NCBI GenBank assembly: GCA_016125475.1
Contig: WGLR01000005.1
Coordinates: 75,859 to 128,789, forward strand
Source: Betaproteobacteria bacterium
GTDB taxonomy: Bacteria > Pseudomonadota > Gammaproteobacteria > Burkholderiales > Ga0077523
Reading direction: 5' to 3'
DNA length: 52,931 nt
Shown here: positions 8,898 through 48,844 of the stretch, piece after piece
Position numbering within the stretch: position 1 is the stretch's first letter
Layout of the letters: each line of letters begins with the position of its first letter
Program-made: the position numbers and the translations under genes
The notes under the pieces: generated by a model
Seen by the model: the letters and a program-made list of their open reading frames with translations, nothing else
The model's database searches: none
What the model was told of the DNA's origin: nothing

Positions 8898-9032
8898 ACG
8901 TGCATCGGGCTTCCCGGGCCGTTCCAGGAAACGATCACGCGGCCGTGGCCCACACACGTTGCCATTGATGGAAGAAGCTTCGCGCCCCTTGCCGGCGCAC
9001 GGGACGGCGGAATAGAGACGTACCGCCCCGAT

Positions 9033-9400: not shown

Positions 9401-9401
9401 G

Positions 9402-9752: not shown

Positions 9753-10064
9753 CTGTCGCCGTGAGCGGCGTAAATGGACCTTCCCGTGCAGCGCGGATGC
9801 GGCCCTCGCCCGTGGTTCGCGACCGGGGGCAACGTGGTCACTGCCCGAATCCACCCTAAATCCTCGTGCGTCGCGGTCGTTCACGAGAGGAGGCCGTGGT
9901 CTTCACGCGAGCGGAAGGCAAGAGCAGTGATTCCCTGCAATGCGCCTGCTTTCCGGCGTTGAACGTCGAGGTGCCGCCGAACGGGCGGTCGGTTCGCGCG
10001 GGCACGGATCCGGGCTGCATCGGCGCACGCTCGCCCGGCCCATTCACGAGGGAGTGACTGGCTC
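9753..10064. other. Intergenic stretch between SDR remnant and small membrane protein gene
   Basis: About 310 bases. Short frames exist on both strands, but none shows family motifs or a credible ribosome site. GAGGGAGTG near 10049 is the probable ribosome site of the next gene. No repeat or RNA structure was recognised. Confidence 0.4.
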
Positions 10065-10517
10065 ATGGATTTCAAGTTGACGGGTTGGAAGGCGATCGCT
10101 GCTCTCGTCGTGGTGATCGCCTTCGTCGCCTTCAGGTTCGGGACGCGCAGCTCCGCGATGGAGTCCCAGGGTGTGGAGCAGGTCAGGCACTGGCTGGTGG
10201 CGGAATCCATGCGGGCCGCGCTGCCTCGGATGCAGGCGGCGATGGACGGCAGGCAAGGCGGCGACGATTACCTGACGGAAACAGCCGAAGACCTGCAGGA
10301 GAAGAATTTCGAGATCGTTTCCGTGACGACGCACGGACTGGGCTCGCGTGTCGTCGCCCGGGTGGAAGTGCGATTCAAGGGGCAGCCACCGCCGGACGGC
10401 AGGAACGTCCGATACCTGACGATGACGTATTCGATGGTAACCGGCTGGATCGTCGAGCGCGAAGCCACGAAATGGGACTACTACATGGCCGTCTTCGGCT
10501 CGCCCAGATCGACCTGA
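10065..10517 (+). CDS. Hypothetical protein with one N-terminal membrane segment
   Basis: A 150-residue protein of no recognised family. Residues about 9-26 (AIAALVVVIAFVAFRFG) form one hydrophobic segment, and the rest is soluble and mixed-charge, so it is probably anchored in the inner membrane with the body in the periplasm. The C-terminal 70 residues contain alternating hydrophobics (VVARVEVRFKG, RYLTMTYSMV) suggesting a small beta-sheet. The ATG at 10065 has GAGGGAG nine bases upstream. It is flanked by gene remnants on one side and the convergent PEP-CTERM gene on the other. No function is proposed. Confidence 0.6.
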   Translation: MDFKLTGWKAIAALVVVIAFVAFRFGTRSSAMESQGVEQVRHWLVAESMRAALPRMQAAMDGRQGGDDYLTETAEDLQEKNFEIVSVTTHGLGSRVVARVEVRFKGQPPPDGRNVRYLTMTYSMVTGWIVEREATKWDYYMAVFGSPRST

Positions 10518-10523
10518 TCCGGG

Positions 10524-11558: not shown

Positions 11559-11782
11559 TGGCGCGCTCTCCTTATCAGGGAATCGCCGATAGATCCATCG
11601 CGCCAATTTTCCTGCGTACGCGGGGCGCCGGTGAGTGAGCGATGTCAACTGCCGTGCATCGCCATCCGATCTTGATCGTCTGGTCTGCGAGCGTCGTGGC
11701 CCGGCCTCGAAGCGGTTGCGCGGGAAAACCGCGCCTCGATCGGCGCGCTCACGCGGAAGCCCATCTGCCGCTCCGCCGCGCC

Positions 11783-26938: not shown

Positions 26939-27844
26939 GTGAACGGGAATAGCCTCACGCGCTACGCGTGGCTGTCCGTCGCCGTCGCGCTGGCGACCAT
27001 CGCCCTCAAGGTGGCGGCGTGGTGGATCACGGGTTCCGTGGGACTGCTGTCCGATGCGATGGAGTCCGGCGTGAATCTCGTCGCCGCCCTTCTGGCGCTC
27101 TGGATGCTCACGCTCGCCGAGCGGCCTCCCGACGAGGAGCACGCCTACGGATACAGCAAGGCCGAGTACTTCTCGAGCGGCGCCGAAGGCGGCATGATCT
27201 TCATCGCTGCGGCGGCGATCATCTGGTCCGCCGTTCCGAGGGTGATCGAGGCGACACCCATCGAGAAGGTGGGGCCGGGCCTCGTCATCAGCGTCGTGGC
27301 GTCCGTGATCAATTTCGGGGCGGCCAGGATGCTCATGCGTGCGGGCCGGCGCCATGGTTCGATCACGCTGGAAGCCGATGCACACCACCTGCTGACCGAC
27401 GTGTGGACGTCGGCAGGCGTCATCGCGGGGGTCGCGCTCGTCTGGCTCACGGGATGGTATCGTCTCGACGCGATCGTCGCGATCGCCGTGGCGCTGAACA
27501 TCCTGTGGACGGGCTTCCGGCTGCTGCGCCGTTCCGCGCTGGGTCTGCTCGACCGGGCGATCGCGCAGGAACACCGCGAAGCCTTGCAGCAGGTGCTCGC
27601 CTCGCACGAGTCGAACGGGGTCGTGTTTCATGCGCTTCGCACGCGCGAGGCTGCGGGGCGTTCGTTCGCGTCGCTGCACGTGCTCGTGCCCGGGCGATGG
27701 AGCGTGCAGCGCGGTCACGACCTCTGCGAGCGCATCGAGCAGGAGATGCGTTCGGCTGTCCCGAACCTGTCCGTGATCACGCACCTCGAACCGCTGGAGG
27801 ACCCGCGGTCCTTCGAGGACGAGCCGCTCGACCGGGAGGGGTGA
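26939..27844 (+). CDS. Cation diffusion facilitator (CDF) family metal transporter
   Basis: A 301-residue CDF antiporter that exports Zn2+, Fe2+ or related ions in exchange for protons. Six membrane helices lie in residues 8-205. The metal site is spread over [11 protein letters not shown] in TM2 and [14 protein letters not shown] in TM5, both with the conserved Asp. [19 protein letters not shown] is the typical loop after TM2. The C-terminal cytoplasmic domain (about 206-301) has the ferredoxin-like pattern. The GTG at 26939 starts the family N-terminus; no strong ribosome site is seen. It lies 36 bases after pyrC. Confidence 0.9.
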
Positions 27845-30641: not shown

Positions 30642-31715
30642 ATGGATATCACTCGCCGCGGATTTCTCGCGACTGCCGCCGCCGCGACGGCGACGACCGC
30701 CGTCTCCCCGCTTGCGTCGGCTGCGGACAAGTGGGCTCGTGACCGTGACTGGAGCGGAGATCCCCCCGTGACCTATCCGGAGCCCGCCTGGGAAGTGATG
30801 GACAAGCGCTTCAAGGGCGTGCAGGGCAACTCCACCCTCCAGCGTCTCTGGCACGGGATGGGTGACAACCGCGCACTCTGGGCGGAAGGACCCGTGTGGA
30901 TGGGCGACTGGGGCTGCGTGATTTTCAGCGACATTCCGAATCACCGCACGCTGCGCTGGTGCGAGGACGACGGTCACGTGAGCGTTTTCCAGACCGAGTC
31001 GGGCTATTCGAACGGTCACACGCGCGACAACCAGGGCCGCCTCATCGCGTGCGAGCACGACACCCGTCGTGTACGTCGCCGCGAGTACGATGGCACGTGG
31101 ACCGTGCTCATGGACAACTACCAGGGCAAGAAGCTCAACGCACCGAACGATGCCGCCGTGCATCCGGACGGATCGATCTGGTTCACGGATCCCGGCTACG
31201 GCATTCTCGGGCCGTACGAAGGCCACAAGGACACGTTCGAACTGCCGACGCGCGTCTATCGGCTCGATCCGAGCGGCAAGGCGACGGTCATGGTCGAGTC
31301 GATGAAGCGTCCGAACGGTATCGCGTTCTCGCCCGACTACAAGCGTGTATACGTCGTGGACACCGGTGCGACGGACGGCCCGCAGTATCCGGCGAACATC
31401 ATGGTGTTCGACGTCTCCGACGACGGCACGCGCGTCAGCGGCGGCCGCGAGTTCGCCGACTTCCGTCCCGGCTTCACCGATGGCATCCGTGTCGACACTG
31501 ACGGCAACGTCTGGTGCGGCTGGGGATGGGGCGGACCTGCGACGAACGGTGTGCGCGTCCATCATCCCGACGGCACGGAACTCGCCTTCCTGCATCTGCC
31601 GGAAGTCTGCGCGAACCTCTGCTTCGGCGGCACCAAGCGCAACCGGCTCTTCATCACGGGCAGCACTTCCCTTTACGCGATCTACGTGAACGCGGTCGGG
31701 CACGCCCTGAGCTGA
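30642..31715 (+). CDS. Tat-exported SMP-30/gluconolactonase family lactonase
   Basis: A 357-residue six-bladed beta-propeller hydrolase predicted to open sugar lactones. ITRRGFLATAAAA is a twin-arginine signal, with cleavage near ASAADK, so it works in the periplasm. Metal-site residues occur in ALWAEGPVWMGDWG (Glu), LNAPNDAAVHPDGSIWFTDP (Asn), KRPNGIAFSPD (Asn) and FTDGIRVDTDGNVW (Asp), in the SMP-30 order. An AGGAGG site precedes the ATG. A strong terminator follows the stop. It faces the dehydratase/lactonase/transporter operon and is a likely first step for a lactone substrate; this role is inferred. Confidence 0.88.
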   Translation: MDITRRGFLATAAAATATTAVSPLASAADKWARDRDWSGDPPVTYPEPAWEVMDKRFKGVQGNSTLQRLWHGMGDNRALWAEGPVWMGDWGCVIFSDIPNHRTLRWCEDDGHVSVFQTESGYSNGHTRDNQGRLIACEHDTRRVRRREYDGTWTVLMDNYQGKKLNAPNDAAVHPDGSIWFTDPGYGILGPYEGHKDTFELPTRVYRLDPSGKATVMVESMKRPNGIAFSPDYKRVYVVDTGATDGPQYPANIMVFDVSDDGTRVSGGREFADFRPGFTDGIRVDTDGNVWCGWGWGGPATNGVRVHHPDGTELAFLHLPEVCANLCFGGTKRNRLFITGSTSLYAIYVNAVGHALS

Positions 31716-31750
31716 TCGCCCGCCTGTCGTCAGACATTCGGTCGGAATCG

Positions 31751-31782
31751 GCCCGCGGCCCCTGGCCCGCGGGCTTTTTTTT
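31751..31782 (+). terminator. Rho-independent terminator after the SMP-30 lactonase gene
   Basis: An eight-base-pair perfect stem (GCCCGCGG at 31751-31758 with CCGCGGGC at 31767-31774), an eight-base loop, then eight T (31775-31782). It lies 36 bases after the stop codon and separates the lactonase from the dienelactone-hydrolase-like gene. Confidence 0.92.
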
Positions 31783-31936
31783 CGTCCGGGCGCCGGCAAA
31801 GGCCGGCCGCGCACCGGTGTCTGAAGACGGAGCGGAACGCTGGTTCGCCTTTCGTGGTCATCACCACATGCCTGCGGCGCGTGCATCCCCGTGAGGCGCG
31901 CAGGACAGGCAGGACTTCAATCAGGAGGACGACGAC

Positions 31937-32605
31937 ATGGGACGTTTCATCGAACTCACCGCATCCGACGGACACTGGCTCGGGGCCTATCGTGCCGAGC
32001 CCGCGGGTACACCCAAGGGTGCGCTCGTCGTCGCGATGGAGATCTTCGGCGTCAACAGCCACATCCGCTCGGTCGCGGATGGCTATGCCGCGGACGGATA
32101 CCTCGTGATCGCGCCGGCACTCTTCGACCGTGCGGAGCGCAACTATGAAACAGGCTATTCCCAGGAAGACATCCAGCGCGGCATCGCGATGATCGGAAAG
32201 ATCGATCTGGACAAGGCCGCCCTGGACGTGGCGAGCGCCGTCGCGAACGTGGCGGGTGCGGGCAAGGTCGGAATGGTCGGCTACTGCTGGGGCGGCACGG
32301 TGACGTGGAAGGCTGCCTGCGCGGTCGACGGGCTCGCGTGCGCGGTGCCGTACTACGGCGGGGGCGTGCCCGGACTGATCGGTCTCAAGCCGAAATGCCC
32401 GGTCATGTTCCACTGGGGCGAGTCGGACGCGTCGATCCCGCTCGAGAAGGCCCGCGAATTCGCGGCCGCCCACGCGGACCAGATTCATCACTTCTACGCG
32501 GCCGGTCACGGCTTCAACTGCGACCAGCGCGGATCGTACGACGCCGAGGCCGCGAGGCTCGCACGCACGCGCACGCTCGAATTCCTCGGCCGGCACGTCG
32601 GGTAG
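31937..32605 (+). CDS. Dienelactone hydrolase family protein
   Basis: A 222-residue alpha/beta hydrolase. The dienelactone-hydrolase triad is present: Cys in GMVGYCWGGTV, Asp in HWGESDASIPLEKA and His in YAAGHGFNCDQRGSY; the Glu of VVAMEIFGVN is the residue that controls the nucleophile Cys in true DLHs. The family cleaves dienelactone in chlorocatechol catabolism, but many members have other ester or lactone substrates, and no aromatic-pathway genes are nearby. An AGGAGG site precedes the ATG. The ThuA-like gene follows after 12 bases, so they form a pair. Confidence 0.88.
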   Translation: MGRFIELTASDGHWLGAYRAEPAGTPKGALVVAMEIFGVNSHIRSVADGYAADGYLVIAPALFDRAERNYETGYSQEDIQRGIAMIGKIDLDKAALDVASAVANVAGAGKVGMVGYCWGGTVTWKAACAVDGLACAVPYYGGGVPGLIGLKPKCPVMFHWGESDASIPLEKAREFAAAHADQIHHFYAAGHGFNCDQRGSYDAEAARLARTRTLEFLGRHVG

Positions 32606-32617
32606 GAGCGTCGTCCG

Positions 32618-33271
32618 ATGCGGACCCGGTCCGCCCTGATCGTCTGGGGAGGCTGGTCGGGACACGCGCCCGAGCATTGCGCCCGGATCGTGCGCGCGAT
32701 GCTCGAGGCCATGAACTTCCAGGTGCGGATGGAGGATTCCCCCCGTGCCTTTCTCGATCCGCACCTGCCGCGAATGGATCTCGTCGTGCCCGTGGTCAGC
32801 ATGGGCACGATTTCCCGGGAGGAGGCCGCGAGCCTGTCCGGTGCCGTGAAGCAGGGCGTCGGTCTGGCCGGATTCCATGGCGGCATGTGCGACGCGTTCC
32901 GGGAGTCGGTCGAATACCAGTTCATGTGCGGGGGGCAGTTCGTGGCGCACCCGGGCGGCATCATCGACTATCGCGTGAACATCACGCGCCCCGACGACCC
33001 CGTGATGCAGGGGCTTCGGGATTTCGACTACCGTTCCGAGCAGTACTACATGCACGTCGATCCCGGGAACGAGGTGCTCGCGACCACTACCTTCTCGGGT
33101 GAACACGCCGACTGGGTCGAGGGCGTCGTGATGCCCGTCGTCTGGAAGCGGCGTCACGGTCGCGGGCGCGTGTTCTTCAGCGCACTCGGTCACGCTCCGG
33201 AAGAATTCGCCGTCGCACCCATGCGCACGATTCTCGAACGCGGCCTGCACTGGGCGGCGGAAAGGGCGTAA
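32618..33271 (+). CDS. ThuA-like domain protein
   Basis: A 217-residue protein of the ThuA family, which has a class-I-glutamine-amidotransferase-like fold and is named after the Rhizobium trehalose-utilisation gene. It has ALIVWGGWSGHAPEHCARIV at the start, MDLVVPVVSMG, GVGLAGFHGGMCDAFRES and FMCGGQFVAHPGG, then the late block GRGRVFFSALGH. The biochemical role is not established; family members sit in sugar-utilisation operons, where a role in carbohydrate ketone or lactone chemistry is suspected. It is the last gene before the long inverted repeat. Confidence 0.85.
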   Translation: MRTRSALIVWGGWSGHAPEHCARIVRAMLEAMNFQVRMEDSPRAFLDPHLPRMDLVVPVVSMGTISREEAASLSGAVKQGVGLAGFHGGMCDAFRESVEYQFMCGGQFVAHPGGIIDYRVNITRPDDPVMQGLRDFDYRSEQYYMHVDPGNEVLATTTFSGEHADWVEGVVMPVVWKRRHGRGRVFFSALGHAPEEFAVAPMRTILERGLHWAAERA

Positions 33272-33274
33272 CCC

Positions 33275-33337
33275 AAAACGCAAGAGCGCAAGCCTGACCC
33301 CTCATGATATGGGGTCAGGCTTGCGCTCTTGCGTTTT
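33275..33337. terminator. Perfect 27-bp-arm inverted repeat between convergent genes (bidirectional terminator, possible repeat element)
   Basis: The arm at 33275-33301 is the exact reverse complement of 33311-33337, with a nine-base loop. The outer ends are AAAA and TTTT, so either strand would give a long hairpin followed by U residues. It lies between the ThuA-like gene and the convergent dehydratase gene, so it can end both transcripts. Arms of 27 perfect base pairs are longer than needed for termination; it may be a copy of a dispersed palindromic element. Confidence 0.9.
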
Positions 33338-33369
33338 CCCCGACGGCTTCGGGCCGCCGGGGAACGGGA

Positions 33370-35178
33370 TCAGTGGTTGTCCCGCGGCACGCCCTTGGTC
33401 GTCGCGACCTTCTGGTACTTCACGGCTGGCTTCAGCACCATGCCGTTGGAGAGTTCGTCCACCATGCCGCGCTGGATCTCCTGCCACGGTGTCTGGTTCT
33501 CGGGAACCGGATGGCCGCCCTTCTTCATGAGCGTCGCCATGCGCTTCTCGTACTCCTCCTTGCTGATGAGGATGTTCGCCGTGCGCTTGTTCAGGTCGAT
33601 GCGGATCTTGTCGTTCGTCTTGAGAATCGCGAGCCCGCCGTTGCTCGCAGCCTCGGGCGACGCATTCAGGATCGACGGCGATCCGGACGTGCCGGACTGG
33701 CGACCATCCCCGATGCACGGCAGCTCCGTGACGCCCGACTTGATGAGCAGGGCGGGCGGCTGCATGTTCACGACCTCGGCCGCGCCGGGGTAGCCCTTCG
33801 GGCCCGCTCCGCGGACGACCAGCATGCACTTGTCGTCGATCTTGAGCTTCGGGTCGTCGATGCGCTTGTGGTAGTCCTCCGGACCTTCGAACACGATCGC
33901 ACGACCTTCGAACGCATTGGGATCCTTCGGGTTCGACAGATAGCGATCCCGGAACTGCTGCGAGATCACGCTCGTCTTCATGATGGCGCTGTCGAACAGG
34001 TTGCCCTTGAGATTCAGGAAACCTGCCTCCGTCTTCATGGGCTTCTTGAAGGGCCAGATCACGAGCGGATCCTGCACCGTGGTGCTCTTGCAGTTGTCCG
34101 CGAGCGACTTGCCGTTCACCGTGACCGTGTTCTTGCGGATCTTCCCGGCCTTCAGCAGCTCGTTCACCACGGCCGGAACGCCGCCCGCGTGGTAGTAGTC
34201 CTCGCCGAGATATTCGCCGGCCGGCTGCAGGTTCACGAGCAGCGGAATGTCGTATCCGACCTTCTCCCAGTCGTCGTTCGTGAGCTTCACGCCGATGTGC
34301 TTCGCGATCGCGTTGAAGTGGATCGGCGCGTTCGTCGAGCCGCCGATCGCGGAGTTCACGACGATCACGTTCTCGAACGCCTCACGCGTCATGATCTTCG
34401 ACGGGCGCAGATCTTCCCAGACCATGTCCACGATGCGCTGGCCCGTGCGGTACGCGTTCTCGTAGCGGTCGCGGTAGGGCGCGGGGATCGCGGCGCTGCC
34501 GGGCAGCGACATGCCGAGCGCCTCGGCCAGGGAGTTCATCGTCGAGGCCGTACCCATCGTGTTGCAGTGGCCCGCCGACGGTGCGGAGGACGCCACGATC
34601 TCGATGAACTGCTCGTGATTGATCTCGCCGGCAGCCAGCAGCTGGCGTGCCTTCCAGACGATGGTGCCGGAGCCGGTGCGCTCGCCGCGGAACCAGCCGT
34701 TCAGCATGGGGCCGCCGGACAGCACGATCGCGGGGATGTCCACCGTCGCGGCAGCCATGAGCTGCGCGGGCGTGGTCTTGTCGCAGCCAGTCGTGAGCAC
34801 GACGCCGTCGATGAAATAGCCGTAGAGCAGTTCGACGAGCCCGAGATAGCACAGGTTGCGATCCAGCGAGGCCGTGGGCCGCTTGCCCGTCTCCTGGATC
34901 GGGTGCAACGGAAATTCGAACGCGATGCCGCCTGAGTCCCGGATGCCTTCACGCACGCGGTGCGCGAGTTCGAGGTGATGCCGGTTGCACGGCGAAAGAT
35001 CGGACCCGGACTGCGCGATGCCGATGATCGGCTTGCCCGATTGCAGTTCTTCCCGGGACAGGCCGAAGTTCATGTAGCGCTCGATGTAGAGCGCAGTCAT
35101 GTCCGGATTGTCCGGATTCTTGAACCACTGGCGGGATCTCAGTCTGGTCGGGTCTCGATCCACGGACTTCTTTGCCAT
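33370..35178 (-). CDS. IlvD/Edd family sugar-acid dehydratase (pentonate dehydratase type)
   Basis: A 602-residue Fe-S dehydratase. The cluster Cys lie in [32 protein letters not shown] (with the carbamylated Lys) and [20 protein letters not shown], and the C-terminal block [20 protein letters not shown] is conserved. The length and [11 protein letters not shown] pattern place it with L-arabinonate, D-xylonate and related aldonate dehydratases, not with IlvD of branched amino-acid synthesis. The expected product is a 2-keto-3-deoxy acid. The ATG at 35178 is preferred; a TTG nine bases upstream is too near the GAGGAGGAG ribosome site. It follows the apionate-lactonase-like gene by 136 bases. 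Confidence 0.88.
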
Positions 35179-35314
35179 GATGCGCAAGCTCCTCCTCGAT
35201 TGTTTGCGGCAGATCTTCCGTACGTGACGGTCAGCCGGGGATCATACTCCTGCGGCGCATCGCCGGGCCGCGGGCGGCTTCGGTGCGGAAGCTGCCCGCG
35301 GTGCCGTCGTGCTT

Positions 35315-37285
35315 TCAGTCGTTCACGCAGATCCACGCGACGCCGTACGCCTTGAGCGAGAGCTTCCCGCCGCTCACTGCCCTGCGCTTCGCCTGGAACC
35401 GGAAGGGTTCGCGTGTCGCCGCGTCGAAGCTGGTCTCGTCGAGCACGCCCACGAAAGCACTCCTGCCGGCGAGGCCGTCGAGTTGCACGGTCTGCGTGGC
35501 CGCGGTCCTGTTCGCGAGCCAGAGCAGCGTCGCGCCCTTCACCTTGTAGGCGAAGCCGTCGACGGTCGTTCGGGCCGAGCTTTCGACGTTCACGATGCGC
35601 GCACCCGCCGCCCGGGCGAGCCCGCTCACGACGTGGTAGGCGGGATACACGGCGGTGCCGGCATCGTCGAGCCCGGGCTGGGCGAAATCCGTCTTCCGGT
35701 AGATGAATCCGAGCGGGCCGGCGGGCGCACCGACGCTGATCGTGTCGATGCCCGAGCGTGCGAACGTCGCGATGTAGCCTGTGAACCACGCCGCGCCGAA
35801 CAGGCCACGCATGCGCGGGTCCATGCGGGCGAGGCACACGCGCTCGTTGTCGGGGTTCGGCGTGAAGGTGGCGCCATGCGGATTGTCGCGACAGCCGATC
35901 GCGCTCGGTCCCACGCGATGCGGCGTCCTGCCGATGAACGACTTTGCCGTCGCGACCTGGTAGGGCAGTGCCTCGAGGGTTTCCATGACCGACCGGTCGT
36001 CCGCTGCGTGCACGATGGGGCAGGTCGTGTTCGTCACGAAGTCGAGCAGCTCCGCGGGCGGTCTCTTGCGGTTGAGTTCCGTGAAGAACGAGAACATGCC
36101 ACCGCCGAGCCTGACACCCGGGAAGGCTTCGCGGGCGGCCGCGTAGAGCGCTTCCAGCGGCGGCGCGGGCGGCCGCTCGCCGCCGGGCAGGACCGATTTC
36201 AGGTCACCCACGGGGCAGACGGCGACGGCATCCGGCCTGAGTCCGGCCTGGTCCACGAGGCGCGCCACCTCCCTGAGCTCGGCCGCGAAGCCTTCGAGGC
36301 TCTCCACGACGATCTCGAGAACGGCCTTCGCCCCGGTCTGCTCGCACAGGAAGCGCAGCCCGTAGAGTTCCCGGAGCCCGTGGCCGGCGCGGGGATCGTG
36401 ATGCCCCACGAGGAAGCCGGGGGACATCGCCCGCAACAGCGCGAGGCGGTCCACGGCGTGCGGAATCTCTTCGGGGGGCATGCCCAGACCGACGGGCGGC
36501 ACCGTGTTGCGCGACGTCGATCCCAGCGAGACGGTGACGCCGCCGGACGAGCGGCGTGCGGCGCCCTTCGGGATCGCGCCCGAGAGCGAGACCCGGATCG
36601 TCTGGCGTACCGTCTCGCCGGCCTTCAGCACATAGGGCCAGGGCAGGGCGAGGGGCCGCACGTAGGTCTTGAACGACGCGTCGGTCCAGTTGCGGTGATC
36701 CTCCATCTCCCACGTGTCGCCTTCCATGCGCACGGTCGCCTTCGCACCCGGCATGAACTCGTGCGTGAGCGCACGAATGTGGAGGAACGGCTGCACGGGA
36801 TTCACGAGCTTCGGGAACACCGATCGCTCGACCTTTCCGTCCACGTGCTCGACCTCGACGCGGTTTCCGACGACACCCTCGAGCGGGTGCAGGACCACGA
36901 ACCCGGTGCGCGCGGTCAGGAAGTCCGTCTTCGGGACCGCGACGCCTTCGAACACGAGGTTGCCGTCGGCGTCCCCGGTGATCGAGACGTCGAACGCGAT
37001 TTCCTGGCGGTCACGCCTGCAGACGGCGTGGTAGGACACCGCGAAGCCGTCCTTGCGCTGATCGATACGGAGCTTGCTGAGTGCGGGAACGTACGTGCCC
37101 CAGTTCTCGTCGCGCACGAGGAACGACACCGCGCGCAGCACTTCGACGCCATTGACTCTCAGGTAGCGGCACTGCCCGCCGTCGAACTCCACCTCCGACG
37201 GTCCGGCCCGCAGGATCCTGCCGGGCACATCGGGTTGGACGGTACCCACGAGCCTGATTTCCCGCGAGGCGTTTTGACCAGCCAT
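35315..37285 (-). CDS. D-apionate lactonase-like protein (three-domain, TIM-barrel type)
   Basis: A 656-residue cytoplasmic protein without a signal peptide. The N-terminal domain has RYLRVNGVEVLRAVSFLVRD (in part) and DENWGTYVPALSKL, a beta-rich region that I recall from the ApnL family of D-apionate lactonases. A middle domain (about 270-520) has GFLVGHHDPRAGHGLREL, KAVLEIVVESLEG, AVAVCPVGDLKS and GGGMFSFFTELNRKRP, consistent with a TIM barrel. The C-terminal part is a small beta-domain. The ATG at 37285 has AGGAGAG. It lies between the transporter ATPase and the dehydratase genes, which supports a sugar-lactone role. The family call is from memory, without a search. Confidence 0.65.
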   Translation of the reverse strand: MAGQNASREIRLVGTVQPDVPGRILRAGPSEVEFDGGQCRYLRVNGVEVLRAVSFLVRDENWGTYVPALSKLRIDQRKDGFAVSYHAVCRRDRQEIAFDVSITGDADGNLVFEGVAVPKTDFLTARTGFVVLHPLEGVVGNRVEVEHVDGKVERSVFPKLVNPVQPFLHIRALTHEFMPGAKATVRMEGDTWEMEDHRNWTDASFKTYVRPLALPWPYVLKAGETVRQTIRVSLSGAIPKGAARRSSGGVTVSLGSTSRNTVPPVGLGMPPEEIPHAVDRLALLRAMSPGFLVGHHDPRAGHGLRELYGLRFLCEQTGAKAVLEIVVESLEGFAAELREVARLVDQAGLRPDAVAVCPVGDLKSVLPGGERPPAPPLEALYAAAREAFPGVRLGGGMFSFFTELNRKRPPAELLDFVTNTTCPIVHAADDRSVMETLEALPYQVATAKSFIGRTPHRVGPSAIGCRDNPHGATFTPNPDNERVCLARMDPRMRGLFGAAWFTGYIATFARSGIDTISVGAPAGPLGFIYRKTDFAQPGLDDAGTAVYPAYHVVSGLARAAGARIVNVESSARTTVDGFAYKVKGATLLWLANRTAATQTVQLDGLAGRSAFVGVLDETSFDAATREPFRFQAKRRAVSGGKLSLKAYGVAWICVND

Positions 37286-37354
37286 GACTCATCTCTCCTG
37301 TGGAAACGGACCACCATGTACGGATTGCACGGATATGTCTCGCGGCGTCGCGGA

Positions 37355-38458
37355 TCAGGACGAGATGACCTTCTCCGTCGCCGCGTCGATCAGCACGGTG
37401 CGATTCATGTCGATCGACAATTCCAGTCGCTCGCCCGGCCGCGACACGTCGTGGGCCTGGAGTTCGGCGACGGCCGCCACGCCTCCCAGCTGAAACGTCG
37501 CGTACGAGCGTGATCCCGTGGGCTGCACGAGATCCACCACGGCCTGGACGGGCGCGAGGCCGGGACGCTGATCACGTCCGGCCGGACCGATGTGCTCGGG
37601 GCGCACGCCGAGCATCAGGGGCTTGCCCTGCCACGTGCCGAGGCCCACGGCGCGCTCGGCCGGCACCGGCAGGCTCGTGCCGTCTCCGAGCCGGACGCTG
37701 ATCGCCGCACCATTCGCAACGACGCCGGCCGGGATGAAGTTCATCGAAGGCGAACCGAGAAAGCCTGCCACGTACCGGGTGGCGGGACGCTCGTAGAGAT
37801 CGAGCGGTGCGCCTTGCTGCTCGATCACGCCCTCCCGCAGCAGCACGATCCTGTCCGCCATCGTCATGGCCTCGATCTGGTCGTGCGTGACGTAGATCAT
37901 CGTCTTGCCGAGTTCCTGGTGGAGGCGCTTGATCTCGCCACGCATCTCGTCGCGCAGCTGGGCGTCGAGGTTCGAGAGCGGCTCGTCGAAGAGGTACAGG
38001 CGCGCATTGCGCACGACGGCCCGTCCGATGGCCACGCGCTGCAGCTGGCCGCCCGAGAGCTGTCGCGGAAAGCGCTCCAGCAGGTGATCGATGCCGAGCA
38101 TCTTCGCGGCGGCGGCGACCTTCGGTCCGATCTCGGATTTAGGTGTCTTCCGTGCGCGCAGGCCGAACGCGATGTTGTCGAAGACCGTCATGTAGGGGTA
38201 GAGCGCATAGTTCTGGAACACCATCGCGATGTCGCGATCGCGCGGTGCGAGGTCGTTCACGCGCTGCCCCCCGATCTCGATGGCGCCCTTGTCGGCGACC
38301 TCCAGGCCCGCGATCGTGCGCAGCAGCGTGCTCTTGCCGCAGCCGGACTGACCGACGAGCACGGTGAACTCGCCCGCAGGGATGTCGAGGTCGATGCCTT
38401 TCACGACGTGCAAGGCGCCGTAGTACTTGTGGAGGCCTGATATCTTGAGATCGGACAT
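37355..38458 (-). CDS. ugpC: Sugar ABC transporter ATP-binding protein, UgpC/MalK type
   Basis: A 367-residue ATPase for a carbohydrate importer. Walker [11 protein letters not shown]-loop [12 protein letters not shown], signature [14 protein letters not shown], Walker [13 protein letters not shown] and switch THDQIEAM are all present. The C-terminal 120 residues form the TOBE/regulatory domain ([13 protein letters not shown]) seen in UgpC and MalK. The gene symbol denotes the subfamily, not glycerol-3-phosphate specificity. It follows the second permease by 106 bases and precedes the lactonase-like gene by 69 bases. Confidence 0.92.
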
Positions 38459-38564
38459 GAGGTTGACGATGCTGAGACGGCTCAGGAACCCGGCGACCCC
38501 GACGGGTCCGGGATGAAGGTCGAGGGCGCTGCCGCCCGAAACGGGGTACGGATGACGGACTGCA

Positions 38565-39395
38565 TCATCCCTTCACCGCCCCGAGAGAGATGCCGCGCAC
38601 GAGATAGCGCTGCATGAAGCCGACGATCACGAAGATGGGCAGCGTGCCCAGCACGGACATCGCCGAGATCTTCGACCAGAAGTTCGACTGTCCGCCGAAG
38701 TAGTGGGTCACCTGGACCGTGTAGGTCGTGACCTCGGTGCGCGTGAGCACGAGCGCGAAGATGAAGTCGTTCCACGCGAACACGAACGTGAAGATGGCCG
38801 TCGCGAAGAGTCCGGCGCGGCACATCGGGAAGACGACCTTCCAGATCACCGCCCAGCGCGAGCAGCCGTCGACGAGCGCGGACTCCTCGAGCGCGACCGG
38901 GATGTCGAGCACGTAACCCCGCATCATCCAGATCACGTAGGGCAGGTTGAACGCGGTGTAGAGCAGGATCATGCCCGCGTACGTGTCGACGAGCTTCAGC
39001 CAGACGTAGAGCAGGAAGACCGGAAACACGATCGCGATGGGCGGCACCATCCGTTGCGAGATGATCCAGTTCGCGAGGTGATCGCCACCGGTCCTGAAGC
39101 GGGCGAGGCTGTACGCGCATATCGTGCCGAAGAACATCGCGAGCACCGTGCTAACGCCCGACACCACGAGGCTGTTCCAGACCGTGTCGGCATCGCCGTC
39201 CCTGAAGAGCACGGCATAGCTGCCGAACTGCAGCGTGGACGGCCACCACACCGGTGGGTACGCGTAGATTTCGTCCGCTGTCTTGAACGAGATCATGAAC
39301 AGCCAGTAGATCGGGAACAGGAAGAACAGCGTGATCGCGATGGCGATGGCGTATCTGAGGCCCAGTTTCAGGGCGCTTCGTGTGCGGACGTTCAT
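38565..39395 (-). CDS. Carbohydrate ABC transporter permease, MalG/UgpE type
   Basis: A 276-residue inner-membrane permease with six predicted helices. The N-terminal [21 protein letters not shown] is the MalG-type signature, and the EAA loop reads [20 protein letters not shown] then P (conserved Gly present). The ATG at 39395 overlaps the stop of the first permease by four bases (ATGA), indicating translational coupling. It pairs with the upstream permease and UgpC-type ATPase as a CUT1-type importer, usually for di- or oligosaccharides and sugar derivatives. Confidence 0.92.
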
Positions 39396-40276
39396 CGGGA
39401 GAGCGACACTCGTCTGAGGGCCGTCAGCACGAGCACCGAGAGCAGCACGATGATCAGCAGCGCGACGGCCGCGGTGTAACTGGTCTCGAACTGCTGGAAG
39501 CCCTTCACGTACGTGAAGATGGAAATGGTCTCCGTCATCGTCCCGGGGCCGCCCTTCGTGAGTGCCCAGACGATGTCGAAGAGCCGGAACAGATCGAGGC
39601 CGCGGATCAGGATGGCGACCGCCATGACGGGCCAGATCGCGGGGAGCACGATCCTGAAGAACGTGCGCCAGTAGCCCGCACCGTCGATCTGCGCGGCCTC
39701 GAGCTGGGACCTGTCGACCCTGGACAGCGCGGCGAGGAGCAGCAAGAACATGAAGGGCGTCCACTGCCAGATCTCGGCCACGAGAATGGCCACGTAGACG
39801 AGATCGGGCTTGACGGTCCAGAGGAGCGGCATCTCCTTGCCCGCGATCCAGCCGATGATCTCGTTCACCGGGCCGAAGCGGTTGTCGAACATGAGCGACC
39901 ACGTCGCGCCCGCCACGATCGGCGACACGACGACCGGGAGCACGAGCAGTGCGACGAAGACCTGCCTGCCCGGCAGGCGGTCGATGAAGAGCTGTGCCAT
40001 CGCGAGCCCCAGACCCAGTTCGATGGGCAGGGCCACGACGGTGAACACGATGGTGTGCAGGAGCGACTGCCACAGGCGCGCGTCACTGAACAGCAGCCGG
40101 TAGTTGAGCAGTCCGTGGAACGAGGTGTCCGTCTCCATCATCGTGATGCCCTGGAAGCTCACGACGAGGAGGTATACGAGCGGGAATACGCCGATCAGCA
40201 GCAGGATGACGATCGACGGCGCGACGAGCGAATAGCGGAATCCGCGATCTCCGGAACGCCCGGCCGTTGCAGCCAA
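39392..40276 (-). CDS. Carbohydrate ABC transporter permease, MalF/UgpA type
   Basis: A 294-residue permease. It has YSLVAPSIVILLLIGVFPLV as first helix, TMSFD-free periplasmic loop regions, LLNYRLLFSD, and the EAA loop LEAAQIDGAGYWRTFFRIVL. Five or six helices follow. A TTG at 40276 with a well-placed GAGGAGAG site is chosen as start. A GTG at 40309 would add 11 residues, but it lies inside a stable hairpin. It is the first gene after the binding-protein gene and is coupled to the second permease. Confidence 0.88.
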   Translation of the reverse strand: MAATAGRSGDRGFRYSLVAPSIVILLLIGVFPLVYLLVVSFQGITMMETDTSFHGLLNYRLLFSDARLWQSLLHTIVFTVVALPIELGLGLAMAQLFIDRLPGRQVFVALLVLPVVVSPIVAGATWSLMFDNRFGPVNEIIGWIAGKEMPLLWTVKPDLVYVAILVAEIWQWTPFMFLLLLAALSRVDRSQLEAAQIDGAGYWRTFFRIVLPAIWPVMAVAILIRGLDLFRLFDIVWALTKGGPGTMTETISIFTYVKGFQQFETSYTAAVALLIIVLLSVLVLTALRRVSLSR

Positions 40277-40296
40277 CAGAGTCTCTCCTCGGAACG

Positions 40297-40326
40297 CCCG
40301 GACGGACACCCGCGTGTCCGCCCGGG
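40297..40326 (-). other. Stable hairpin just upstream of the permease start
   Basis: CCCGGACGGACAC (40297-40309) pairs with GTGTCCGCCCGGG (40314-40326) around a four-base loop with one mismatch. It lies in the 186-base gap between the binding-protein stop and the permease ribosome site. In other transporter operons, hairpins here protect the binding-protein mRNA and lower permease expression; the same role is inferred. Confidence 0.7.
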
Positions 40327-40401
40327 ACTGACAGCATGTGATGGTTGGGTCGCAGCCGACCGGAGTGCACGGCTCACCGGCGCAGCGCTCGACATGCGCC
40401 C

Positions 40402-40423
40402 GCCGGGTGGCGCACCACCCGGC
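40402..40423 (-). other. Second hairpin in the binding-protein/permease gap
   Basis: A perfect nine-base-pair stem (GCCGGGTGG and CCACCCGGC) with a CGCA loop, about 40 bases after the solute-binding-protein stop on the minus strand. No T-run follows, so it is more likely an mRNA 3'-end stabiliser or partial terminator than a full terminator. Confidence 0.65.
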
Positions 40424-40462
40424 GTGTCCGGAAACGCCTCCCGGGCGACGTGCGGGACGGCG

Positions 40463-41944
40463 TCAGCGCTTCGGATAGGCGCCGCTCTTGGCCGCCCAGG
40501 CGTTGTAGATCGCCTTCTGCCGGTCGACGCCCACGCGCTGGGTGATGCTGTCCCACTGCTTGGCGACGTCGTCGAGGATGGCCTTGGGATCATCACCCGC
40601 CCACAGACGGCTGACGCCCTGACGCAGGGCTTCCTCGTACTTGTCCGTCTGGATCAGCGACAGGTCCAGCAGACCCGTTTCCGAGGCTTCCTTGAGCGTC
40701 GCGAGGTAGTTCTTCGCGTCCGGCCAGAGCTTCAGGTAGCCCGGGTTCGTGTAGTGCGAGTTCCGGAAGGGGTCGCGCAGTGCGTACGGCAGCTGCACGC
40801 GCTTGTTGGAGATCTCCTCGCTGTTCAGCCACTGGATCAGCAGGTAGGCGAGTTCCTTCTGCTTGCTGGAGGACGCCACCGACAGCGCGAAGCCGAGCGC
40901 GAGTTCCGGATGTCCGCCCGGGGGCAGCGCGTAACCGACCTTGCCCGCGATCTGCGATTTCGGCACCCAGTCGAGCGCCTTCTCGTTCGCGAGGTAGCCC
41001 GCCGCGAACCGGCCGTACGGCGGCCACGAGATCGTCATCGCGCTCTGGCCCTTCAGGAACACGGCCAGGTTCTCGACGAAGCCGAACTTCTCCACCCCCG
41101 GCGGCATGAAGCGGTTCTCGTGACGCATGCCCTCGAGCGCCTTGACGCCGATCTCGCTGTTGACGGTGGCCTTCATCGTGTTGCCGTCGAAGAAACGGCC
41201 ACCCTCGTTGCGGAAGCGCTCCTCAAACATGAACAGCGCATAGGGCGGGTCGCGGAAGAGCGAGGCGCCGTAGATGCCCTTGCTCTTGAGCTTCTCGGTC
41301 AGGAACGAGCCGATCTCGTCGAACTGCTGCCACGTCTTGGGCGGCGCGAGGTCGTACTTGTACTTCGCCTTGAACTCGCGCTTCAGCTTGGGATTCGCGA
41401 AGATGTCCTTGCGGTAGTACATGATGAACACGTCGCCGTCGTCCGGAAAGCCGTAGATCTTCCCGTTGACGGTCATCTGGTTGTCGCGATACGTCGGCGC
41501 GATGTTCTTCAGCTCGTCGCGGTAGCCGTACTTGTCGACATAGCTGTCGAGCTGCTCGAGCGCCCCGGCCTGCACGAGGTCGGGCATCCACGAGGGGACC
41601 ACGTTGAGCGCGTCGTACGCACCGGTCCCGGCGCGGTACTCCTGCATGATCTTGGTGAACATCTCGGCGGTCGGGACCTCGACGACCTTCACCTTGCACC
41701 CGGTGAGCTTCTCCCACAGGGGACCGGAGTAGTTGAGCGGATCGAGGGACTGCAGACCAGCCTCCCAGACGATGGAGATCGTCTTGCCGCCCGCACAGAG
41801 CGGCTTGGCCGCCTCGACTGCACGCTGGGCCGCGTTCTCGGCGGATGCGGTGCCCGAAAAAGCCAGCAGGCCGGTGGCGGCCGCGGGCACAAGGACGTTC
41901 CGGATCGCGGACGCGACCAGACGCCTCGGGGAAAAAGCGCTCAT
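40463..41944 (-). CDS. Sugar ABC transporter substrate-binding protein (family 1)
   Basis: A 493-residue periplasmic binding protein. The signal peptide ends FSGTASAENA. The mature part has SIVWEAGLQSLDPL, YDALNVVPSWMPDLVQAG, NGKIYGFPDDGDVFIMYYRK and SAMTISWPPYGRFA, which match family 1 carbohydrate-binding proteins; it is longer than usual (about 420). The ATG at 41944 has GGAGGAG. It is the first gene of the transporter-lactonase-dehydratase run and is divergent from the aldolase gene. The ligand is predicted to be a sugar acid or lactone only from the downstream enzymes. Confidence 0.9.
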   Translation of the reverse strand: MSAFSPRRLVASAIRNVLVPAAATGLLAFSGTASAENAAQRAVEAAKPLCAGGKTISIVWEAGLQSLDPLNYSGPLWEKLTGCKVKVVEVPTAEMFTKIMQEYRAGTGAYDALNVVPSWMPDLVQAGALEQLDSYVDKYGYRDELKNIAPTYRDNQMTVNGKIYGFPDDGDVFIMYYRKDIFANPKLKREFKAKYKYDLAPPKTWQQFDEIGSFLTEKLKSKGIYGASLFRDPPYALFMFEERFRNEGGRFFDGNTMKATVNSEIGVKALEGMRHENRFMPPGVEKFGFVENLAVFLKGQSAMTISWPPYGRFAAGYLANEKALDWVPKSQIAGKVGYALPPGGHPELALGFALSVASSSKQKELAYLLIQWLNSEEISNKRVQLPYALRDPFRNSHYTNPGYLKLWPDAKNYLATLKEASETGLLDLSLIQTDKYEEALRQGVSRLWAGDDPKAILDDVAKQWDSITQRVGVDRQKAIYNAWAAKSGAYPKR

Positions 41945-42278
41945 GTCTACTCCTCCAGTGATTTTGTATGAGCTTCTCGACGTGCATCGGCCCGACGTGC
42001 GTGACGCGGTGTTGCGTGACAGCGCCGAGCCGAACGGTACCGACGAAGCGGGATTATGGGAAAGCGGGTGCCCCTAGGCAAGAATTCAGTGGCACGGGCA
42101 CGAGGGGGCGGAAAGGATGCTGCGGCGCGGCACGCGGAATGCGGTCACGGGGGCAGCGGAAGATCGTGCGGAATCCCGTGCCGAGGCTGCGCTGCCGGTG
42201 CGCGTGCGATAGCATGGCACGCGTACTCGTGTCGCATGGACGCTGCGCCGCGATCCGTCACAGTCCGGAGGAAAGAAA
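41945..42278. promoter_or_regulatory. Divergent control region between binding-protein operon and aldolase-hydratase genes
   Basis: About 334 bases with no coding frame. GCGTGAC is repeated at 41999-42005 and 42014-42020, and CGACGTGC at 41978-41985 and 41993-42000; both pairs are 15 bases apart. A TAGCAT -10-like box lies at 42210-42215 on the plus strand, next to a near-palindrome. The region probably holds both promoters and operators for the sugar-acid regulon. Confidence 0.5.
42218..42231. promoter_or_regulatory. Near-palindromic 14-mer, candidate operator
   Basis: CACGCGTACTCGTG is symmetrical except at positions 5 and 10, and is flanked on both sides by GCATGG direct repeats. It lies immediately after a TAGCAT box and 48 bases before the aldolase start, where a LacI- or GntR-type repressor could bind. 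No second copy was found by eye. Confidence 0.35.
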
Positions 42279-43100
42279 GTGCGTAGCAATCCCGTGAAAG
42301 AGGCGCTCGCTCGTGGCGAAGCGAGCTTCGGCACGATGGCCTGGGAATTCTTCACGCCGTCGCTGCCGCAGGTCTGCGCGTCGGCGGGCGCCGAGTTCCT
42401 GCTGCTCGACATGGAGCACAGCGGCGTGAGTCTCGAGACCATCAAGACGCAGCTGGCACTGTGCCGTGGCCTGCCGATCGCGCCGTTCGTGCGTGTGCCG
42501 ACGACCGCGTACCAGTACCTCGCACGCGTGCTCGACGCGGGTGCGACGGGGGTGATGGTGCCCATGGTGGAAACGGTCGAGCAGGCCCGTGACATCGTGC
42601 GCTGGACTCACTACCCGCCGGCGGGCAGGCGCGGGGCCGCCTTCGGGGCCGCGCACGACGATTTCCTGGGCGGGGACGTGCGGGAGAAGATAGCGCAGGC
42701 TCACGACCGCACGTTCCTCATCTGCCAGATCGAGACCGAGGTCGGGTTGCGGAACGTCGAGGAGATCGCGGCCGTCGACGGCGTCGACTGCCTGTGGGTC
42801 GGGCATTTCGATCTCACCAGTTTTCTGGGCATTCCGGCGCAGTTCGATCATCCGGAATATCTCGACGCGATCGACCGGGTCGTCGCGGCCGCGAACGCGC
42901 ACGGCAAGGTCGCCGGCTTCATGGCCGCGGACGAGCGATGGGCGACCGAGTACTACGCAAAGGGCTTCCGGATCATTGCCTACGGTGTCGACACCCTGCT
43001 TCTGCAGACCGGCATCCGTGCGGGGATCGACGCGCTGCGCGCACAGGTTCGCGAAGGTGGTGGAGCGGGTGCGGCGGGCGCCGGGAGGACGGGACGATGA
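42279..43100 (+). CDS. HpcH/HpaI family class II aldolase
   Basis: A 273-residue TIM-barrel, metal-dependent aldolase of the HpaI/RhmA/GarL group, which cleave 2-keto-3-deoxy acids to pyruvate and an aldehyde. It has FLLLDMEHSGVSLETI (catalytic His), APFVRVPTTAYQYLARVLDA (Arg), MVPMVETVEQA and ICQIETEVGLRNVEEI (metal Glu), then VGHFDLTSFLG (metal Asp). The GTG start at 42279 has a GGAGGAAAG site. It overlaps the next gene by four bases (ATGA). With the dehydratase in the divergent operon it gives a dehydratase-aldolase pair. Confidence 0.88.
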   Translation: MRSNPVKEALARGEASFGTMAWEFFTPSLPQVCASAGAEFLLLDMEHSGVSLETIKTQLALCRGLPIAPFVRVPTTAYQYLARVLDAGATGVMVPMVETVEQARDIVRWTHYPPAGRRGAAFGAAHDDFLGGDVREKIAQAHDRTFLICQIETEVGLRNVEEIAAVDGVDCLWVGHFDLTSFLGIPAQFDHPEYLDAIDRVVAAANAHGKVAGFMAADERWATEYYAKGFRIIAYGVDTLLLQTGIRAGIDALRAQVREGGGAGAAGAGRTGR

Positions 43101-43909
43101 AGGCCGGCGACACGTCGAACGGACGCCTCCCGGGCGGCGCCGCCGAGACGCTCGCGTGCCACCGTCTCGCGCGTGAACCGCTGGATTCCCTGCCCGAAGC
43201 GGAGCGGCCGCGGGACGAACGCGAGGCGTACGCCGTCCAGGAACTCGTGCACGCCCGTCTCGAGCGGGCCGGCCTGGGGCCGGTCGCGGGTTACAAGATC
43301 GGCTGCACGACGCCCGTCATGCAGGCATTCCTGAAGATTCCGAACCCGTGTGGCGGTGCAGTCCTCGCCGGGACCGTGTACAGGTCGCCCGCAGTCATTC
43401 CGCACGACGCGTTCGTGCGCGTGGGCGTCGAGTGCGAGATCGTCGCGCGGCTGGGGCAGGACCTGCCCGCCCGTGCCGAGCCCTACTCGCAGGAGGAAGT
43501 CGAGGCCGCCGTCGCGACCGTGATGCCGGGGATGGAGATCGTGGACGCCCGCTACGTCGACTACACGCGGCTCGACACCCCCACGCTGATCGCCGACGAC
43601 TTCTTCGATGCCGGGTGCGTGCTCGGCGATGAACGGGATGCCCGCTCCGGGCCGGACCTGGCCGGGGTTGTCGGCGTGACGCGGATCAACGGCGAGGAGG
43701 TGGGACGCGGTCGTGGCGCGGACGTGATGGGGCATCCGTTCCGGGCGCTCGCGTGGCTGGCGAACTCGCGCTCCGCACGGGGGCTCGGCCTCGAGGCGGG
43801 GCGCTTCGTGTTCCTGGGCAGCGTCGTCGAGACGAAGTGGCTCGCGCGGGGCGACCTGGTCGAGATGGACCTCGCGGGGCTCGGGCGCGTCGAGGCCCGA
43901 TTCACCTGA
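43097..43909 (+). CDS. 2-keto-4-pentenoate hydratase-like protein (FAH superfamily)
   Basis: A 270-residue protein of the MhpD/DmpE/HpaH group. Conserved blocks are GPVAGYKIGCTTPVMQAFL, GVECEIVARLG (metal Glu), MPGMEIVDARYVDYTRLDTP, DVMGHPFRALAWLANSRSAR (in part), and GSVVETKWLARGDLVEMDLA. The family hydrates 2-keto-4-pentenoate or acts on related 2-keto acids with Mg2+. The ATG overlaps the aldolase stop by four bases, so the two are translationally coupled. In meta-cleavage pathways a hydratase and aldolase act in sequence; here the substrate is more likely sugar-derived, by context. Confidence 0.85.
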   Translation: MKAGDTSNGRLPGGAAETLACHRLAREPLDSLPEAERPRDEREAYAVQELVHARLERAGLGPVAGYKIGCTTPVMQAFLKIPNPCGGAVLAGTVYRSPAVIPHDAFVRVGVECEIVARLGQDLPARAEPYSQEEVEAAVATVMPGMEIVDARYVDYTRLDTPTLIADDFFDAGCVLGDERDARSGPDLAGVVGVTRINGEEVGRGRGADVMGHPFRALAWLANSRSARGLGLEAGRFVFLGSVVETKWLARGDLVEMDLAGLGRVEARFT

Positions 43910-48388: not shown

Positions 48389-48844
48389 ATGCTGGAGATG
48401 ACCGTGAACGGCAGGCCGGTCGCGCTCGACGTCGAGCCGGAGATGCCGCTGCTTTGGGTGCTTCGTGACGAGCTCGGACTGACGGGTTCCAAGTACGGGT
48501 GCGGGATAGGGGTGTGCGGGGCATGCACGGTGCACGTCGACGGGGCGGCCGTGCGGGCCTGCGTACTGCCTGCGTCCGAAGTGGCGGGCAGGTCGGTCAC
48601 GACGATCGAGGCACTCGCCGCGGACGACCTGCACCCGATCCAGAAAGCGTGGATCGCGTTACAGGTCCCGCAGTGCGGCTATTGCCAGAGCGGCATGATC
48701 ATGAGCGTCGCGGCCCTCCTCGCGTCCACACCGCAACCTTCCGACGACCAGATCGACGAGGCGCTCGGAAACATCTGCCGGTGCGGAACCTACGTTCGCG
48801 TGCGCAGGGCGATCCACGCGCTCGCGGCGGAGTCGAAGAAATGA
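48389..48844 (+). CDS. iorA: (2Fe-2S)-binding subunit of a molybdenum hydroxylase, IorA-like
   Basis: A 151-residue iron-sulfur subunit. The plant-type ferredoxin cluster is [16 protein letters not shown] plus the fourth Cys in RACVLPAS, and the helical cluster has [11 protein letters not shown] and [15 protein letters not shown]. It passes electrons from the molybdenum subunit. The ATG at 48389 has GAGGACAGAG upstream; a longer frame is not supported. The stop overlaps the start of the large subunit by four bases (ATGA). The pair resembles isoquinoline 1-oxidoreductase; the real substrate is unknown. Confidence 0.9.

Follow-up and report, generated by a model that had tools for sequence, protein, structure and literature searches.

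Organization of the Locus

The stretch of DNA considered here, hereafter the window, comprises 52,931 nucleotides (G000:C46:75859-128789) of a betaproteobacterial draft genome, G000, of 4.88 Mb and 48 contigs, and carries at positions 30642-43909 an island of eleven genes, including those for a CUT1-type importer, for a protein resembling D-apionate lactonase (ApnL) and for an HpcH/HpaI-family aldolase (Table 1). All eleven are intact open reading frames, most of them with a ribosome-binding-site-like stretch 5' of the start. They form a plus-strand unit (SMP-30, dienelactone hydrolase (DLH)-family protein and ThuA; 30642-33271), a minus-strand unit running from 41944 down to 33370 (binding protein, two permeases, ATPase, ApnL-like protein and IlvD), and a divergent plus-strand pair made of HpcH and an FAA-fold enzyme (42279-43909). 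An earlier note on this DNA had named these eleven genes and their families from the letters alone, and the matches to Pfam and NCBIfam profiles, each scan covering ten of the eleven proteins, agree with it. The inverted repeat around which the note had placed the units is likewise real: its arms (33275-33301 and 33311-33337), the longest of 11 pairs found, are perfect over 27 nucleotides, the predicted RNA fold reaches -60.7 kcal/mol (z -11.2), and the pattern has a single place in the draft genome. Its position, with ThuA and IlvD converging on it, is that expected of a bidirectional terminator. A promoter scan found one candidate, no better than the mean of 1.4 in shuffled sequences, and the Pfam and NCBIfam scans revealed no regulator gene among the eleven.

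Table 1. Genes and repeat of the island, with window coordinates and profile matches.
Feature	Position	Strand	Group	Profile match and remarks
SMP-30/gluconolactonase-family lactonase, Tat-type signal	30642..31715	+	Variable neighbour	PF08450, 184.5 bits
Dienelactone hydrolase (DLH)-family protein	31937..32605	+	Variable neighbour	PF01738, 127 bits
ThuA-like protein	32618..33271	+	Variable neighbour	PF06283, 153.7 bits
Perfect 27-nt inverted repeat, terminator-like	33275..33337	.		Between convergent genes
IlvD/Edd-family sugar-acid dehydratase	33370..35178 (start 35178 or 35187)	-	Variable neighbour	ILVD_EDD_N, ILV_EDD_C; NF009560, 1033 bits (cut-off 684)
D-apionate-lactonase (ApnL)-like protein, P0005	35315..37285	-	Core	NF049900, 659.1 bits (cut-off 750)
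CUT1 ABC importer ATPase (UgpC/MalK type)	37355..38458	-	Core	NF008653, 433.5 bits (cut-off 432); OB_MalK and TOBE domains; conserved order
ABC importer permease (MalG type)	38565..39395	-	Core	PF00528
ABC importer permease (MalF/UgpA type)	39392..40309	-	Core	NCBIfam profile
Solute-binding protein	40463..41944	-	Core	PF01547 (SBP_bac_1), 115.8 bits
HpcH/HpaI-family class II aldolase	42279..43100	+	Core	PF03328, 135 bits
FAA-fold, 2-oxopent-4-enoate-hydratase-like enzyme	43097..43909	+	Core in Betaproteobacteria	FAA_hydrolase, 60.5 bits; TIGR03220, 111.3 bits (cut-off 408.8)

The idea of a single utilisation island, as put forward in the note, stands for one part of these genes. By comparison of gene content, the island is a mosaic of a conserved seven-gene core (the four importer genes, ApnL-like protein, HpcH and FAA-fold enzyme) and four variable genes, because the former recur together around relatives of the lactonase, whereas SMP-30, DLH, ThuA and IlvD do not or hardly do so. 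Two collections underlie the comparison, and they are not independent, since they appear to overlap in part (L042, for example, would be G002). The first consists of 41 genomes (G handles), 12 of them forming the genus, which were searched for the ApnL-like protein. The second consists of 79 loci (L020-L098) around ApnL relatives, the best 79 of the 406 relatives obtained by scanning named genomes with the ApnL alignment. Genes were counted in these loci and in the controls by tblastn at 38% identity and E 1e-20, except for DLH and ThuA, which were sought at E 1e-15 without identity limit. Counts by gene clustering run slightly low, as the gene caller gave no genes for L054 and L079 and missed the binding proteins of L029 and L031, both of which tblastn sees. 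The controls were 20 neighbourhoods (330 kb) from ten of the G genomes, taken around IlvD, OtnK and SMP-30 together with one upstream piece. Fisher tests refer to the 79 loci, leaving out the window and the G-genome loci L011-L019, and are uncorrected for kinship and contig ends.

A Conserved Association Around the Lactonase

The ApnL-like protein (P0005) is found in 10 of the 41 genomes, namely in eight of the 12 genus members and in two of the 29 others. Its residues 9-602 align with positions 2-593 of the 595 of the ApnL profile NF049900, at a score that does not reach the equivalog cut-off of 750. The 12 relatives scanned also remain under it (327-666), and eight of them, from loci bearing OiaX, score 327-639, below P0005. 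No Pfam family matches it, even at E 10, and the PDB yields no homologue of known structure up to E 0.7. On account of its profile score the protein is not filed as a member of the ApnL equivalog, and its apionolactonase activity is a prediction.

The importer genes keep one order and 72-89% identity in nine regions around ApnL (one of them a 4-kb contig with part of the set), the binding protein being 77-82% identical in eight relatives; the FAA enzyme stands on the divergent side of ApnL and importer in seven of the eight long regions. Across the 79 loci, gene clustering detects the binding protein in 29 (31 by tblastn), the HpcH aldolase in 23 (24 by tblastn) and the FAA enzyme in 11, each time with the importer (a 12th locus by tblastn). 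The importer itself gives no hint of a ligand, as the matches of its binding protein in the PDB are weak (best E 5.8e-13, a sorbitol-type protein).

A further family recurs in these loci: a D-2-hydroxyacid dehydrogenase (2HADH) is present in 24 of the 79, in 19 of them together with the aldolase. HpcH is found in 20 of the 29 loci with the importer binding protein and in 3 of the 50 others (Fisher p 4e-9), so that the joint occurrence of CUT1 importer, ApnL-like protein and HpcH, read by the note from one genome, is upheld. HpcH and 2HADH are associated in the same manner (19/23 vs. 5/56 loci), and neither occurs in the 20 control neighbourhoods, as against 24 of the 79 ApnL loci for each. Wherever both are present (19 loci) they lie on the same strand, in 12 cases at most 13 bases apart. 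In six alphaproteobacterial loci (L038, L039, L041, L051, L053 and L069) the genes are organized in one operon in the order GntR, HpcH, 2HADH, binding protein, permeases, ATPase and ApnL, with a small gene, c16, before HpcH in three of the six; in L095 the order is 2HADH, HpcH, ApnL, binding protein, permeases; and in six betaproteobacterial loci the HpcH-2HADH pair lies beyond ApnL, accompanied in L021, L024, L027 and L028 by one or two short-chain dehydrogenases. In G000 a 2HADH is encoded on a contig other than the window's (C20), together with a second HpcH (57% identical to that of the window) and two short-chain dehydrogenases, and gene comparison identifies it as the conserved partner absent from the window. 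All ten ApnL-positive genomes possess HpcH and 2HADH at 55% identity or more (the 2HADH of G001 in two contig pieces). Importer, ApnL-like lactonase, HpcH and 2HADH are thus shown, at the level of gene neighbourhoods, to form one association in Beta- and Alphaproteobacteria and in one Rokuibacteriota contig.

The aldolase has H47, R72, E152 and D178, the residues of the HpaI active site, and these are invariant in 27 sequences. The window protein stays below the equivalog cut-offs of HpaI, GarL and RhmA (168.7, 145.6, 145.0 and 140.0 bits against 368.8, 393, 441 and 406.75).

Several other genes occur near these. One is c16, a small protein with an ABM domain, distantly LsrG-like and possibly an isomerase, which recurs near ApnL or HpcH in Alphaproteobacteria (12 loci, among them L038, at 3196-3501). 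Mutual replacement of the FAA enzyme and c16 as isomerases was considered, as they never share a locus, and is left as a guess (0/11 vs. 12/68, p 0.20). A cyclase-family protein (PF04199) with a signal-like N-terminus (L024:2869-3984, L023:2229-3140 and relatives) and a PhyH dioxygenase are recurrent near the FAA enzyme in Betaproteobacteria. At 48389-51024 the window encodes a two-subunit molybdenum hydroxylase (Fer2_2 and MoCoBD subunits), which could oxidise an aldose to its lactone; small subunits resembling its own cluster near ApnL in L050, L055, L056 and L063, and L174 has a similar-looking pair next to HpcH-2HADH. Judged by ApnL, the closest named loci are metagenome bins of Betaproteobacteria/Burkholderiales. 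One bin, L027, is deposited as Bordetella parapertussis; its ApnL groups with those of uncultured Betaproteobacteria bins, and the species name looks doubtful.

The Variable Neighbours

The IlvD protein is a sugar-acid dehydratase by family, matching the galactonate dehydratase of PDB 7m3k at E 5.7e-299, and the note had made it the step after the lactonase. This dehydratase route is not supported, because a single IlvD relative, a paralogue of 44% identity, occurs in the 79 ApnL loci, and because the orthologues (identity 82-92%; present in 11 of 13 further genomes, truncated at a contig end in G001 and fragmentary in G011) lie elsewhere, two of them in genomes without ApnL. Within the genus, IlvD is conserved at 88-92% in eight other members, and those two ApnL-negative genomes, G005 and G006, are among them; the supposition that IlvD follows ApnL from genome to genome was discarded. 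The nine orthologue neighbourhoods that were fetched represent about six different contexts, and none has ApnL, HpcH or 2HADH at the threshold used (L137 has a 2HADH-like gene of 35% identity below it). The comparison of genome neighbourhoods that the note had proposed has two outcomes: the lactonase keeps the company of importer, HpcH and 2HADH, and the dehydratase gene is not linked to the lactonase in relatives. On gene order, IlvD is probably a relocated neighbour, not co-inherited with lactonase, importer or aldolase.

In G002, the closest genome by ApnL, the ApnL gene directly meets a cation-efflux gene, the counterpart of that at 26939-27844 of the window; therefore the 7.5 kb with SMP-30, DLH, ThuA and IlvD were either gained here or lost in G002. 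ThuA is confined to this genome among 14 searched and occurs in none of the 79 loci, and a DLH relative (32% identity) occurs in one locus. SMP-30, whose protein carries the twin-arginine motif TRRGFLA at its N-terminus, has relatives of 45-48% identity in four of the 79 loci, directly before ApnL in L070, L071 and L085; orthologues (75-77%) are found in G010 and G034 on contigs other than that of ApnL, and G002, G005 and G006 have a paralogue of about 50% identity close to the HpcH-FAA pair. By these occurrences SMP-30 has some claim to membership, though outside the conserved set. As a whole, the four genes look like chance or recent neighbours of the core.

The window opens, over positions 1-2256, inside the second gene of a tandem pair, each about 1380 codons long, that adjoins pilin-like genes (L140:9538-18115); the two tandem genes are probably PilY1-like.

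Relation to Known Pathways

The canonical oxidative pathway of D-apiose and apionate reportedly consists of ApsD, ApnL, ApnO, OiaK and OiaX, as set out by Carter et al. in 2018, a study known to us by citation alone that may mention an HpcH variant; our literature search found no paper naming apionolactone. One source describes a cluster of the canonical pathway (PMC11747546) and another mentions the RuBisCO-like enzymes (PMC6302742). The present locus shares with this pathway the ApnL-like lactonase, and OiaK/OiaX-like genes occur elsewhere in the genome. It differs in its core, which has HpcH, the FAA-fold enzyme, the CUT1 importer and, in relatives, 2HADH, and in which ApnO, OiaK and OiaX are lacking: when the window was searched by tblastn (E 1e-8) with OiaK, OiaX and two ApnO-like proteins, nothing matched. 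Judged by these features, the core locus is not to be filed as a canonical apionate cluster. In L032 (Oxalobacteraceae) the window-type importer and ApnL stand beside an OiaK-like gene of 415 bits and an OiaX-like gene of 465 bits, neither of which reaches its 700-bit cut-off. In the binding-protein tree (28 sequences of at least 380 amino acids) the L032 protein falls within the group from HpcH-type loci. On the ApnL tree (63 proteins of at least 600 amino acids from 62 of the 79 loci, plus P0005; midpoint root) the HpcH/2HADH and OiaX states alternate, with seven changes; both are quick trees with long branches flagged. In L046, a 304-residue frame between the ApnL gene and HpcH-2HADH (3926-4840) matches RuBisCO_large and then PGDH_C. 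It appears to be what a deletion has left of OiaX-like and ApnO-like genes, a putative fossil of an exchange beside the HpcH route.

The tetronate pathway LtnD/OtnI/OtnK/OtnC, in which 2-oxo-tetronate is the substrate of OtnI, involves, as the route proposed below would, C2 oxidation of a hydroxy acid (PMC12540250). Its genes for OtnK and OtnC (3-oxo-tetronate kinase and decarboxylase) follow ApnL at the end of three relatives' operons (L038, L039 and L041), and the one of each that was scored passes its cut-off (OtnK of L038, 596 bits against 350; OtnC of L039, 292 against 250). What would differ here is that a lactonase and an aldolase precede the pathway and that the substrate is one carbon larger. 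In G000 an OtnK (623.7 bits, cut-off 350) is encoded on a contig other than the window's, with alongside it a gene assigned to OtnC solely by 54% identity to that of L039, and two OtnI matches (376.8 and 341.0 bits, cut-off 325), one of which may be hydroxypyruvate isomerase, also lie off the window's contig. Every ApnL-positive genome, ten in all, has OtnK above the cut-off. G000 further encodes a class III alcohol dehydrogenase over its cut-off, which presumably can handle formaldehyde; ApnL-positive G027 has none over it. The presence of OtnK and OtnC in the three alphaproteobacterial operons suggests loss of formaldehyde to give a tetronate.

Finally, the non-phosphorylative pentonate pathways employ an IlvD/Edd dehydratase and a 2-keto-3-deoxy aldolase. 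The window resembles them in having lactonase, dehydratase and aldolase families side by side, with a member of the IlvD/Edd family present; it differs in that its dehydratase is not co-inherited with lactonase, importer or aldolase.

A Possible Route and Its Alternatives

The reading that we tentatively prefer, with a confidence somewhat short of an even chance, is that the core is a variant apionate-catabolism module working by 2HADH oxidation and HpcH cleavage. In this scheme a branched sugar lactone, with D-apionolactone the likeliest candidate, would enter through the importer, ApnL would open it to apionate, and 2HADH would oxidise C2. Since apionate is a tetronate branched at C3 by a hydroxymethyl group, this oxidation would make the branch carbon a leaving group for retro-aldol cleavage, so HpcH could act on the 2-oxo acid and release the hydroxymethyl carbon as formaldehyde. 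The resulting 2-oxo-tetronate would enter the OtnI/OtnK/OtnC route to dihydroxyacetone phosphate, with genes elsewhere in this genome, and the FAA-fold enzyme may serve a keto-enol or isomerisation step. A chemical precedent is offered by RhmA, which joins formaldehyde and pyruvate (PMC8879981). Taken in its full detail, from 2-oxo-apionate through removal of the branch by HpcH to 2-oxo-tetronate, this further way of breaking down apionate is unlikely to be right at every step. The evidence does not establish the complete route that the note had inferred from an external lactone to pyruvate plus an aldehyde, and another route is better supported.

A number of observations weigh against the preferred reading. 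The score of P0005 is under the curated cut-off (659 < 750), the binding protein is only 43% identical in L056, from the cultured Bauldia litoralis, and in L069, and we know of no HpcH enzyme with demonstrated cleavage of a 3-hydroxy-3-hydroxymethyl 2-oxo acid. Just three of the 79 loci have an OtnK-OtnC pair, with an OtnK relative in L054 as well, and the ApnL-negative G005 and G006 also possess OtnK and OtnI above the cut-offs. Each of the four genus members that lack ApnL has HpcH at 55% identity or more, and three have 2HADH: G004 has two HpcH genes, the FAA enzyme and 2HADH near TRAP-importer genes, and in G005 and G006 the HpcH-FAA pair is retained, next to the RlpA-like, SMP-30 and EamA genes that G002 also has, but without importer and ApnL. 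The aldolase unit therefore has a wider use; where ApnL is lacking it perhaps serves the same acid, taken up directly. Most important, adjacent OiaK-like (499 bits) and OiaX-like (450 bits; both cut-offs 700) genes occur in this very genome (G000:C22:63004-65594; in L189 at 8990-11601), so that the canonical route may serve it. OiaX-like matches of at least 434 bits are present in five of the ten ApnL-positive genomes, G000 included, and in two of the four ApnL-negative genus members, and the expected mutual exclusion of HpcH and OiaX is not significant (2/23 vs. 9/56, p 0.49).

The pair on C22, together with L032, where importer and lactonase of the window type stand with OiaK/OiaX-like genes, is what recommends the canonical alternative, according to which apionate passes through ApnO, OiaK and OiaX, and HpcH, the FAA enzyme and 2HADH serve something else. 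We regard it as unlikely: both genes of the pair are under their cut-offs, the eight pieces of G000 compared contain no ApnO-like gene, and HpcH and 2HADH share the ApnL operon in Alphaproteobacteria. Among the 14 genomes searched, OiaK exceeds its cut-off in G005 and G006 alone, both without ApnL, and five ApnL-positive genomes (G007, G008, G010, G011 and G034) have no OiaX match above 122 bits, four of these being drafts of 64-95% completeness; in G010 an OiaK-like gene of 417 bits lies where a contig begins. The cleanest case is G034, 99% complete, with ApnL, importer, HpcH, 2HADH and OtnK and no OiaX-like match.

Slightly less likely still, in our estimate, is that the ApnL relatives open tetronolactone or another branched lactone, 2HADH and OtnI/OtnK/OtnC degrading the tetronate directly and HpcH having a side role. 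The OtnK-OtnC genes beside ApnL in three loci would fit, as would the sub-cut-off score of the lactonase and the distant likeness of 2HADH, among many families, to 4-phosphoerythronate dehydrogenase; such a route leaves the tight HpcH-2HADH pairing unexplained, and P0005 outscores the ApnLs of eight OiaX-bearing loci on the ApnL profile. Most doubtful of all is the return to the dehydratase, in which IlvD would turn the apionate made by ApnL into 4-hydroxy-3-hydroxymethyl-2-oxobutanoate and HpcH would remove formaldehyde twice to leave pyruvate. The tertiary C3-OH of apionate does resemble the dihydroxyisovalerate substrate of IlvD, the RhmA chemistry is compatible, the gene lies 3' of ApnL on the same strand after a gap of about 130 bases, and an orthologue exists in all ten ApnL-positive genomes (with the gaps of G001 and G011 given above); against this, the linkage to ApnL is confined to this genome, the gene is conserved in G005 and G006, which lack ApnL, and the nine orthologue neighbourhoods have no ApnL, HpcH or 2HADH at the threshold used.

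Significance

Plant cell walls contain the branched pentose apiose in rhamnogalacturonan II, and the sugar also occurs in numerous secondary metabolites of plants (PMC11747546). The gene families of the locus are ordinary, and what is probably new is a variant of apionate catabolism in a conserved module. The locus also illustrates how gene order in a single genome can mislead: what gave the island its unusual look, the dehydratase, is among its least likely true members. If the preferred reading, with 2HADH oxidation and HpcH cleavage, is true, a group of Beta- and Alphaproteobacteria, many of them known only as metagenome bins, would gain a predicted substrate and a chemistry unlike the route of RuBisCO-like proteins; a plant cell-wall sugar would be a natural source of formaldehyde in bacteria, and the HpcH aldolases would gain a debranching role.

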